This document shows, piece by piece, positions 3,033-33,079 of a stretch of 36,922 bases of DNA. Within the stretch, counting starts at the first letter, position 1; each line of letters begins with the position of its first letter. The position numbers and the translations under genes are program-made. This DNA comes from Burkholderiaceae bacterium (GTDB lineage Bacteria; Pseudomonadota; Gammaproteobacteria; Burkholderiales; Burkholderiaceae_F): assembly GCA_025055385.1 (NCBI GenBank), contig JANWXE010000197.1, positions 1-36,922 on the forward strand, written 5' to 3'. The notes beneath the pieces are model-generated. The model was not told the origin of the DNA, did no database searches, and saw only the letters and a program-made list of their open reading frames with translations.

Positions 3033-3081
3033 ATCGTAAAAAGGGGGGTGCTTGTACTTCTTTCAAAGGGGGAGGGGAACG

Positions 3082-3750
3082 ATGAAAAAAACCTTGCAAG
3101 GCGTGGCCTTTTCGGCGGCATTGTTAGGGGCGTCTGCGGCCGCTGCGCAAGCGCTGGCGCTGCGGGCGGGCTTGACAACAGGGTTCGGTGCCGAACTCGG
3201 CTATGGCGTAAACGACTATCTTGCGGTGCGTGCTTCTTACGGTGCCGGCTCGCTTAGCTACGATACGACCGAATCGGACATCCGTTACGACTTCAAATGG
3301 AAACCGCAACTGGCGCTGCTGACGGCAGATATTCACCCGTTTGCGGGCTGGTTTCGCGTCAGCGTTGGTTTCGGCAACCACGGCACGAAGCTGACAGGAC
3401 GGGCGGTAGCGACCAGCGGCACCCTGGAGATCGGTAACCAGACTTTCAATGCTGCCGATGTCGGCAGCGTCGATGCCCGTGTGTCGTTCAAACGCGCCAG
3501 CCCCTACCTTGGCATCGGCTGGGGGGCAGCCGCCCGTGGCAATGCGGGTTTTTATTTCACCTCCGACATCGGCGTTGTCTTCAGCCGCGCGACCGGCTCC
3601 GTCACGGGCACGTGCGCTGCCGGCGTGCCGCCTGCAACTTGCACTCAGCTGCAGCAAGAATTGCAAAACGAATCGCAGTCGTTCCGGCAAGAAGTGGAGC
3701 GCATCAAGTACTACCCGGTAATCACGGTCGGCGTCGGATACCGGTTCTGA
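3082..3750 (+). CDS. outer-membrane beta-barrel protein
   Basis: A 222-residue exported protein. The start at 3082 is chosen because a very strong purine tract (GGGGGAGGGG) sits just upstream; the frame is open further back to 3052 but that would place the signal peptide internally. The N-terminus MKKTLQG followed by a hydrophobic stretch and an AAAAQALA cleavage region is a typical Sec signal. The mature part alternates polar and hydrophobic residues, with many Gly/aromatic positions, and ends in GVGYRF. A terminal phenylalanine is the usual BAM-recognition signature of barrels. A Cys-containing loop (TCAAGVPPATCTQ) may carry a disulfide. The size fits a small 8-stranded OmpW/OmpA-like barrel, but I cannot place it in a named family. 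It is monocistronic, with its own promoter. Confidence 0.75.
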   Translation: MKKTLQGVAFSAALLGASAAAAQALALRAGLTTGFGAELGYGVNDYLAVRASYGAGSLSYDTTESDIRYDFKWKPQLALLTADIHPFAGWFRVSVGFGNHGTKLTGRAVATSGTLEIGNQTFNAADVGSVDARVSFKRASPYLGIGWGAAARGNAGFYFTSDIGVVFSRATGSVTGTCAAGVPPATCTQLQQELQNESQSFRQEVERIKYYPVITVGVGYRF

Positions 3751-30642: not shown

Positions 30643-30669
30643 AAAAAAAGCCCGGCGCGGTAGCCGGGC
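30643..30669 (-). terminator. intrinsic terminator of the flhDC operon
   Basis: Read on the minus strand: GCCCGGC (30669-30663), loop TACCGC, GCCGGGC (30656-30650) and seven T (30649-30643). A perfect 7-bp GC stem 82 nt after the flhC stop. It insulates flhDC from motA. Confidence 0.88.
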
Positions 30670-30750
30670 AAAGGTCGGAGGAGGAAAGGAGGAAATGCCG
30701 CAAGCCAGAGCCGCCCGCCGTTGCGGCGCACAGCGGGCGCATCGAATCGG

Positions 30751-31296
30751 TCAATGCACAGCGACCTCGTCTTGGCGGACGCTGCCTTTGCCTTTGCCGG
30801 CACGCGCCGGCGGCTCGCACAGCCCGCACACGTAATTCTTGGTCAGCTCATAGGTGTGCGTGACGAATTTGCCGCCGCACTTGCAACAAGGGGTGAGCGT
30901 CACCATGCCGGCGTCGACGAACTTGACTAGTCGCCAGGCACGCGTGATTGATAGCAGTGGCTCTAGGTTCTGCACCTTAATCTGCTCTATATAGAGCTCG
31001 TAGGCCTTGATAATGGCGTCGATCTCTTCTAGCTCGGTCGTTTTGTTTAGATATTCGTAAATGTTCAGGAACAGCGACGAATGAATGTTCGGCTGCCACG
31101 TCATGAACCAGTCGGTCGAAAAAGGCAGCATGCCACGCGCCGGTGACTGGCCCTGTACTTCCTTGTACAAACGCAACAGGCGCTCGTAGGAAAGATCGGT
31201 CTCCGATTCCAGCACCTGCAGGCGTGCGCCCAGCTTAATCAGCGCAATTGCGCGCTGGATCTGCTTGCTCTCGCTAACAATGCTTTTGATGCGCAT
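30751..31296 (-). CDS. flhC: flagellar master transcription activator subunit FlhC
   Basis: A 181-residue zinc-containing activator that binds DNA as FlhD4C2 and switches on early flagellar genes with sigma-70. The four zinc-binding cysteines are at 137, 140, 157 and 160, identical to E. coli numbering, in CCKCGGKFVTHTYELTKNYV followed by CGLC; an extra Cys138 is present. The conserved middle GMLPFSTDWFMTWQPNIHSS is intact, and the C-terminal tail is basic. It is 11 bp after flhD. Confidence 0.97.
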   Translation of the reverse strand: MRIKSIVSESKQIQRAIALIKLGARLQVLESETDLSYERLLRLYKEVQGQSPARGMLPFSTDWFMTWQPNIHSSLFLNIYEYLNKTTELEEIDAIIKAYELYIEQIKVQNLEPLLSITRAWRLVKFVDAGMVTLTPCCKCGGKFVTHTYELTKNYVCGLCEPPARAGKGKGSVRQDEVAVH

Positions 31297-31307: not shown

Positions 31308-31652
31308 TCAGGCTACGTCGGCGATTTGACCAGCCATCACGATATGGGCGTGCAGACTCGCCACGGCGCCCGTGCCGGTGGCGCGGCTCTTGCTGTGGCT
31401 GGTCAACAATTGCCAGACCATGTCGTCGTCAAAGCGGAAGCGGCAGATCAGTTGGTTGGCGCTCGCGATCTTCAGCAGCTGCGAAGGCGTCAACTGGTCA
31501 ATGATGCCCGCCACTTCCTCCGAAATGCCGAGCCGGTACATTGCCTGGGCTTTGTCGGCACGGATCATGTGCTGGGCGAGCACGAGGTAAGCGAGGTTAA
31601 CCTCGCGCACTTCTGCGAGCAGCTGCTCGTTCGGGAAAGCGACGGTGCTCAT
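31308..31652 (-). CDS. flhD: flagellar master transcription activator subunit FlhD
   Basis: A 114-residue helical partner of FlhC, the usual size. VREVNLAYLVLAQHMIRADK, MYRLGISEEVAGIIDQLTP and NQLICRFRFDD are classic FlhD blocks. The ATG at 31652 is chosen because AAGGAGGTCC, a near-perfect ribosome-binding site, stands just before it; the open frame to 31748 lacks FlhD similarity. An 18-bp inverted repeat sits directly upstream of that site and may control expression. Confidence 0.97.
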   Translation of the reverse strand: MSTVAFPNEQLLAEVREVNLAYLVLAQHMIRADKAQAMYRLGISEEVAGIIDQLTPSQLLKIASANQLICRFRFDDDMVWQLLTSHSKSRATGTGAVASLHAHIVMAGQIADVA

Positions 31653-31670
31653 TGCGGACCTCCTTGTCAG

Positions 31671-31688
31671 GGGCGATTCCAATCGCCC
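31671..31688. repeat. 18-bp inverted repeat in the flhD leader
   Basis: GGGCGATTCCAATCGCCC: two perfect 8-bp arms around CC, ending 6 nt before the AAGGAGGTCC ribosome-binding site of flhD. It could be a dyad operator or, as RNA, a 7-bp hairpin with a UGGA loop on the flhD strand that limits ribosome access. Confidence 0.6.
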
Positions 31689-31850
31689 GCCTTGCGTTGC
31701 GAAGTGGATCCCATTGTGAGCAGGGGTCCTGCGCGCTTGAAGCGGCATAGATCCAATCTGCGTGTCGGCGCGTCGGCCGGCGTGCTGTAGGCGTTTTTCT
31801 GACAGGCGAACACAGCCGCTGGCGCACGCCCTTGCGCATCGACTAGCTCC

Positions 31851-31877
31851 TTAAGTCGGCGCGGTTTGTGCCGATAA
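31851..31877 (+). promoter_or_regulatory. sigma-28 (FliA)-like promoter ahead of a candidate small RNA
   Basis: TTAAGTCG (31851-31858), an 11-nt spacer and GCCGATAA (31870-31877). The -10 is a perfect FliA match and the spacing is the E. coli N11; the -35 keeps T.AAGT. The predicted start is near 31884, only about 26 nt before a terminator hairpin. Confidence 0.5.
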
Positions 31878-31883
31878 CGCAGT

Positions 31884-31948
31884 CAGCATTTTGTCTTTCC
31901 CCCCGCCCTGCGCGCCGCAGCGACTTCGGTCCTCGGCGCGCTTTTTTT
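31884..31948 (+). ncRNA. candidate FliA-dependent small RNA between flhD and fliC
   Basis: The predicted transcript runs from the FliA-like promoter to the terminator T-run, about 65 nt. Its 5' part (about 26 nt) is unpaired in outline and C/U-rich (TTTGTCTTTCCCCCCGCCCT), a composition able to pair with purine-rich ribosome-binding sites. Its 3' part is a GC-rich hairpin with an inner GAC-UUCG-GUC tetraloop and a 7-T tail, a layout typical of Hfq-type sRNAs. No ORF fits. The 5' end is predicted, not measured. Alternatively the unit is an attenuated long leader of fliC. Confidence 0.4.
31910..31948 (+). terminator. orphan plus-strand intrinsic terminator upstream of fliC
   Basis: GCGCGCCG (31910-31917) pairs perfectly with CGGCGCGC (31934-31941); the loop region holds GACTTCGGTC, itself a small UUCG hairpin. 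Seven T follow (31942-31948). No plus-strand protein gene lies upstream, since flhD and flhC run the other way. Confidence 0.8.
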
Positions 31949-32111: not shown

Positions 32112-32139
32112 TAAAGTTCAGCGTGCGCCTCACCGATAT
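32112..32139 (+). promoter_or_regulatory. sigma-28 (FliA)-like promoter of fliC
   Basis: TAAAGTTC (32112-32119), a 12-nt spacer and ACCGATAT (32132-32139). The boxes match 7/8 and 6/8 of the FliA consensus. The predicted start near 32146 gives a leader of about 125 nt to fliC. Confidence 0.6.
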
Positions 32140-32269
32140 GCCAGCCAACGCGGACGTACCGCGTGGCCGCGGAGGCCAGTCGGCAAAGGACCGGCAGCCG
32201 CTCGGGCAAAGGTCAGCCAGCCGAACGCAAGCGGCTGCTTCACGAGAGTGGATGGAAAGGAGTTAGGAA

Positions 32270-33079
32270 ATGCCGCAAGTGATTAACACTAACCTGATGT
32301 CGCTGAATGCCCAGCGCAATTTGAATGCGTCGCAGTCGGCGATGGCCACGGCCGTGCAGCGTCTGTCTTCAGGCCTGCGCGTCAACAGCGCTAAGGACGA
32401 CGCCGCCGGCTTGGCGATTGCCGAGCGCATGACCGCACAAGTGCGCGGCATGAATGTGGCAATCCGCAACGCGGCCGATGGCATTTCGCTTGCGCAGACC
32501 GCCGAGGGGGCGCTGGCTGCAATCGGCAACAACCTGCAACGGATGCGCGAGCTGGCGGTGCAGGCCGCGAACGCAACCTCGAGCGCGGACCTCGCTGCGC
32601 TGAATGCGGAATACCAGGAGTTGGTGGCTGAAAATACGCGGCTGATCGCGGTTACGTCGTTCAACGGCACGGCGCTGTTGTCGGGCTCGATCAGCCTCAC
32701 TTTCCAGGTGGGCGCGGATAACAATGCGAATAACCGCATCGTCGTCTCGACGACAAGCGGCCTGTCGATTACTTCCGGCAACTTGACATCGCAGGCCAAT
32801 GCGCAAACGGCAATTTCTAATATGGACACTGCGCTGAACACGGTCAACACGCTACGCGCCACCTTTGGGGCGACGCAGTCCCGTTTCGAGTCTGTGATCA
32901 ACGGCCTGCAGATCGCCGCCGAGAACGTGGCCGCCTCGCGCAGCCGTATCTTGGACGCCGACTATGCGGCAGAGACTGCGGCGCTTACCCGCGCGCAGAT
33001 CCTGCAACAAGCGGGCGTGGCAATGCTTGCGCAAGCAAACGCGATGCCGCAAAACGTGCTGTCGCTGTTGCGCGGCTAA
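32270..33079 (+). CDS. fliC: flagellin
   Basis: A 269-residue filament protein, short for a flagellin (E. coli about 500). It keeps the conserved N-terminal D0/D1 helices ([53 protein letters not shown]) and C-terminal D1/D0 ([40 protein letters not shown], ending VLSLLRG), with only a small central domain (about 140-180) rich in Ser/Thr/Asn. There is no large D2/D3. AAAGGAG is an excellent ribosome-binding site. Its Ser/Thr-rich centre could be a glycosylation target, given the neighbours downstream (inference). It has its own FliA promoter and terminator. Confidence 0.97.

Follow-up and report, generated by a model that had tools for sequence, protein, structure and literature searches.

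The stretch of DNA analysed here (the window) is a 36.9-kb contig from an incomplete MAG of 2.2 Mb (82% complete), whose relatives from the same family carry Burkholderiales/Burkholderiaceae in their deposited records. It carries a flagellar gene cluster with fliR to fliE, cheY/cheZ, motAB, flhDC and fliC. Within this cluster flhD and flhC are read leftward and fliC rightward, and the plus strand of the gap between them holds a candidate small RNA (sRNA) unit with a sigma-28-type promoter, a C/U-rich stretch, a GC hairpin and a U-tract (Table 1).

Table 1. Features of the flhC-fliC region of the window, in window coordinates.
Feature	Coordinates	Strand	Remarks
Sister element behind flhC, UUUCCUCCUCCGACCUU + GC hairpin + U7	30643..30690	-	R2 match, E 1.1e-5
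flhC	30751..31296	-	
flhD	31308..31655	-	
Sigma-28-type promoter, TTAAGTCG-N11-GCCGATAA	31851..31877	+	Sequence match, recurs in relatives
Predicted sRNA, ~65 nt	31884..31948	+	Inferred from promoter and terminator
C/U-rich seed, UUUCCCCCCGCC (TTTCCCCCCGCC)	31896..31907	+	Predicted single-stranded
Terminator hairpin, 8-bp GC stem, inner GAC-UUCG-GUC	31910..31941	+	
Terminator U-tract, seven T	31942..31948	+	
Second sigma-28-type promoter, likely that of fliC, TAAAGTT-N13-ACCGATAT	32112..32139	+	~125 nt before fliC start
fliC (flagellin)	32270..33079	+	N-terminus INTN...AQRN

Several other features were noted in this region. An additional sigma-28-type match precedes motA (30547-30520, minus strand). 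The fliC 5' UTR (about 32146-32269, plus strand) contains GCAGCCGCY-(C/U)GGGCAAAGGUGA...AGCGGCUGC, kept in eight genomes; this leader is structured, with conserved loop letters, and has no Rfam match at gathering threshold. Many relatives (L005-L011) have an inverted repeat resembling TGTAGGAA-N-TTCCTACA upstream of flhD; it is degenerate in the window (about 31775-31797) and could be a response-regulator site for flhDC. Other Betaproteobacteria (L061, L062, L063, L065) keep the motif TCAAGAA-N12-GTCGATAA at a distance of 380-490 nt upstream of flhD.

A sequence-only reading of this DNA had proposed a FliA-dependent sRNA between flhDC and fliC on the basis of a plus-strand promoter match, a perfect 8-bp GC stem with an inner UUCG loop and seven T, and the lack of a protein gene in the same direction that could need such a terminator. 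All three observations were borne out. The promoter agrees with the E. coli sigma-28 consensus at 13 of 15 positions and has the canonical spacing. It is the only match in the window at three or fewer mismatches, where 0.13 were expected from shuffles, and dinucleotide shuffles of the same gap gave p = 0.0005-0.001. The start of the predicted RNA was placed about 7 nt after the -10 element. In the terminator (31910-31948), the arms GCGCGCCG/CGGCGCGC pair perfectly (31910-31917 with 31934-31941), with the inner GAC-UUCG-GUC at 31922-31931. A simple terminator scan of the window did not list this hairpin, probably because the interior of the 8-bp stem exceeds the loop limit of the scan. No plus-strand gene lies 5' of the hairpin, and the one long plus-strand ORF in the vicinity (31326-31790) runs antisense to flhD.

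Relatives of the locus were reached via FlhD, and the order promoter, C/U-rich stretch, hairpin, U-tract was found upstream of flhD in ten intact gaps: those of the window, L025, L030 (=L005), L031 (=L007), L032 (=L006), L033, L034 (=L009), L035 (=L008), L036 and L037. An eleventh carrier, G001, from the genus of the window, has the core (C/U-rich stretch, hairpin and U-tract) and the fliC promoter on a contig that ends just before the sRNA promoter. The core thus recurs in 10 other genomes, and the promoter-terminator pair, whose lack of conservation in relatives the sequence-only reading had named as an outcome that would speak against it, is conserved. Core identity is 96% between the window and L025 and 90% between the window and L034, while the 60 nt on either side are about 52% identical, which is the random level. 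The C/U-rich stretch has the consensus UUUCCUCCCCCGCCYU, with UUUCCUCCCCCGCC in most relatives, and is kept in front of both types of hairpin, type A (GCGCGCCG...GAC-loop-GUC...CGGCGCGC) and type B (GCGCCGGUC-loop-GACCGGCGC); the U-tract ranges from U7 to U9. As the stem sequence is invariant in the six type-A members, covariation is unusable as evidence in this type.

MAFFT could not register the two hairpin types, and two covariance models (R1 and R2) were therefore built. They recovered one strong copy per carrier genome (R1, E 1e-15 to 1e-20; R2, E 1e-13 to 1e-17) and no other strong copy in the 67 genomes of the family. A scan of 399 genomes of the order revealed no convincing further case, and the unit, restricted to some genera of one family, is absent near flhD in four sister genomes. 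The only other hit among the 399 genomes (G255, 35.8 bits) was taken as chance because its locus has no TCCCCC motif in the orientation of the match, and the weak matches of both models outside these genera have the look of ordinary terminators.

The promoter also recurs. A sigma-28-like match of at least 11/15 to the E. coli consensus lies between flhD and the C/U-rich stretch in nine of the ten intact gaps, and the spacing of 12 between the -35 and -10 elements (7-mer/8-mer) is found again in relatives. Fisher's combined p against shuffles is about 1e-10 to 1e-11 for these gaps, a value that overstates the case because the genomes are related and not independent. The -10 element GCCGTTAA and the TxAAG of the -35 element are invariant in L030-L033 and the spacer between them varies, a pattern resembling that of a selected promoter. 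L036 has a weak promoter (9/15), and that of L025 lies 119 nt ahead of the C/U-rich stretch. A FliA family protein scoring over the TIGR02479 cut-off is encoded by nine of the eleven carriers; fliA was not found in the MAG of the window (82% complete) or in G001 (61%), the two least complete. Judged from these promoter sequences, the candidate sRNA is very probably sigma-28-dependent.

The predicted RNA is 65-69 nt long in the window, L036 and L037, 84-88 nt in L034 and L035, 125-127 nt in L030-L033 and perhaps 173 nt in L025; the length of about 65 nt and the C/U-rich 5' segment first proposed from the window therefore fit the short variants. The longer RNAs fold an extra 5' hairpin (L030-L035), absent from the short forms. 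The fold z-scores of the carrier RNAs range from -2.0 to -4.9, that of the window RNA being -2.65 with an MFE of -23 kcal/mol. The C/U-rich stretch is predicted to be unpaired (mean 0.47-0.97), in ten of ten cases to a greater extent than the remainder of the 5' part, and ranges from about half open in L031-L033 to 97% unpaired at the seed of the window.

The reading we favour, to which we assign a probability of roughly 0.7, is that of a conserved small-RNA gene encoding a FliA-dependent, trans-acting sRNA of about 65-127 nt whose unpaired UUUCCUCCCCCGCC would cover ribosome-binding sites; transcription, FliA dependence, pairing, Hfq involvement, sign of the effect and targets are what we infer. 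RNA polymerase with FliA (sigma-28) would start near 31884 and stop at the intrinsic terminator at 31948, releasing an RNA of about 65 nt in which the C/U-rich stretch before the terminator should stay single-stranded. This stretch may then base-pair to mRNAs at their purine-rich ribosome-binding sites, probably with the help of Hfq, and the pairing would mostly lower translation of the targets once FliA is active. Such a mode of action is likely by analogy, and the U-tract and open seed are compatible with a trans-acting sRNA of the Hfq type. The probable role of the candidate sRNA is to adjust other genes during flagellar construction.

The search for targets singled out no conserved one. 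The sequence-only reading had pointed to the leader of a barrel-protein gene (3068-3082) as a loosely matching candidate, and among 33 starts of the window this leader indeed pairs best, at -26.7 kcal/mol (z = -2.6). Homologues of the barrel protein in other carriers have no such leader and the pairing is not kept, which leaves it without support as a conserved target. Among the leaders of the flagellar cluster in ten genomes, no gene pairs consistently better than background. Genome-wide, G-rich starts of the form GGGGNRGRAA..ATG are commoner than in a reversed control. Shine-Dalgarno sites would lead one to expect this, and inspection by eye showed no recurring gene family among the starts.

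That no conserved mRNA target was found would agree with a sponge or decoy whose C/U-rich stretch sequesters either a G-rich regulatory RNA or a protein instead of covering ribosome-binding sites. In Caulobacter, the G/A-rich sponge CrfA is a pairing partner of the alpha-R8 RNAs, whose stretch is similar (PMC12559287). No G-rich partner RNA was identified for the candidate sRNA, however, and nothing specific favours this role, which we consider unlikely.

Because the unit lies upstream of fliC and points to it in the window, L025, L034, L035 and G001, it might also be a fliC attenuator, in which a 5' leader starts at the first sigma-28 promoter and its terminator is sometimes read through into fliC. 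In all five, however, a separate sigma-28-type fliC promoter stands between the hairpin and the gene, at the same place in the four relatives as in the window, and the sequence from the hairpin to this promoter is not conserved. The unit is moreover present in four carriers (L030-L033) with no flagellin start within 1.2 kb 3' of it; in the three that were read (L030-L032), the plus-strand ORF that follows looks fliT-like by eye. An attenuator is improbable, given the separate fliC promoter 3' of the hairpin and the occurrence of the unit where no fliC follows. A strong intrinsic terminator in a divergent gap might instead act as an insulator that only blocks stray transcription from the flhD promoter region into fliC, the promoter match being incidental, and chance matches do arise at a low rate. 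Such a role, in our view a poor candidate, does not account for an unpaired C/U-rich stretch conserved to the same degree as the stem, for the sigma-28-like promoter 5' of it in nine of ten gaps or for the persistence of the unit where fliC is not behind it. Finally, a short mRNA for a micro-peptide is very improbable: MDExM..xLR-like codons were seen by eye in three of the four long (type B) RNAs, but the frame is broken in L032, and the window RNA lacks an ATG, none of its possible start codons having an in-frame stop ahead of the hairpin.

Comparison with Rfam at gathering and relaxed thresholds attributed no family to the window sRNA. Among the closest known systems are the alpha-R8 sRNAs (MmgR of Sinorhizobium, SisA-D of Caulobacter; RF00519 suhB), which consist of a 5' hairpin, an open UUUCCUCCCU 10-mer and a terminator (PMC12559287). 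Like them, the candidate is a short RNA that ends in an intrinsic terminator preceded by a UUUCCUCCC-like stretch, predicted to be single-stranded. A UUUCCUCCCC-type stretch with terminator is present in most carriers, and the 5' hairpin in L030-L035 and not in the short forms. Unlike the candidate sRNA, the alpha-R8 RNAs are alphaproteobacterial, and the available part of PMC12559287 describes neither a sigma-28 promoter nor a flagellar linkage for them. The sRNA had no match to RF00519 at E up to 5, and neither it nor the sister element behind flhC reached the gathering score of 41 bits; the latter aligned end to end with suhB/MmgR at sub-threshold scores of 21.7 bits (window) and 26.7 bits (L140).

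The E. coli sRNAs UhpU, MotR, FliX and FlgO are sigma-28-dependent, UTR-derived and conserved only among some Enterobacteriaceae (PMC10578931). The candidate resembles them in being, from its promoter sequence, a small RNA under the flagellar sigma factor, and differs in that it looks free-standing, lies in a divergent gap and has a C/U-rich seed. In Campylobacter, FlmR/CJnc170 is FliA-dependent and 47 nt long and FlmE/CJnc230 is RpoN-dependent, the latter having in C. jejuni a 12-nt open stretch with an anti-SD motif (PMC11187230). Here the likeness would extend to a short FliA-dependent sRNA in the flagellar cascade, an anti-SD stretch and two sRNAs at different tiers; phylum and position are different, and no sequence relationship is evident. 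The Burkholderia double-hairpin sRNAs / Betaproteobacteria toxic small RNAs (RF02278) and Bordetella S17 are short terminated RNAs of Burkholderiales with CU-rich anti-ribosome-binding-site stretches (PMC5688073; PMC11722255). In contrast to these, the window sRNA has a single hairpin after the stretch, and loci and promoters are different. It has no match in the window to the Betaproteobacteria toxic small RNAs (RF02278, gathering score 50 bits), and the sister element scores 17.3 bits.

This sister element was reached through a match of the type-B model in the window, which led to the 3' end of flhC. Behind flhC, UUUCUCCUCCGACYU followed by a GC hairpin and a U-tract is found in eleven genomes (window, L025-L030 and L034-L037), the stems being different. 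L031 and L033 have plain terminators at this place, and L038 and L039 a vague likeness to the element only. Each genome has few instances of the pattern CTCCNCCG..T6. The sister element is possibly a 3' UTR-derived sRNA. Since nearly the same stretch lies in the flhDC 3' UTR, the same targets may already be reached when flhDC is transcribed.

In one genome, G003, the seeds of both elements are changed to the same UUUCCUCCGCAUUU. Before a T-tract this sequence occurs at just those two places in the 3.0 Mb of G003 and nowhere in the other flagellate genomes of the family; the exact anti-seed has five further sites in G003, none at a start codon or ribosome-binding site. Over the seven genomes with both elements, the two resemble each other somewhat more inside one genome than across genomes (permutation 0.04; the best of 24 by-clade arrangements). 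Numerically weak, this signal speaks for targets in common or for conversion of one element by the other. We tentatively propose, as a doubtful extension of the favoured reading, that two RNAs sharing one anti-Shine-Dalgarno seed flank flhDC, one cut out of the class I flhDC mRNA at its 3' UTR and one of class III made by sigma-28, and that they jointly hold down one target set throughout flagellar assembly, from first step to last, their seeds co-evolving, as in G003 and by the CCUCG ending common to L036 and L037.

Few bacteria are known to have free-standing sigma-28-dependent sRNAs, and the papers retrieved on them concern Enterobacteriaceae and Campylobacter. If the favoured reading is true, it would add a conserved betaproteobacterial case beside the master regulator, accompanied by an element of similar seed in the flhDC 3' UTR, and coupling of sRNAs to the flagellar cascade would have arisen repeatedly. 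The seed changes offer a direct route to the shared targets through genome comparison.

Further stretches followed by a terminator were also noted elsewhere in the family. CUCCUCCGAAGAGGCGGA then a terminator recurs in G000 (C123:9200-9247), G007, G010, G012, G017, G028, G034 and G078, directly behind a sigma-factor gene, probably rpoH, in those checked (G000, G012, G017, G028, G078). UUCCUCCGCGUUUUU and a terminator occur in two flhD-lacking or distant members (G082:C1:913997-914048 and G084:C24:2133-2183), and the G082 copy lies behind a carbamate-kinase-like gene, an instance of the same type of stretch outside flagellar genes.
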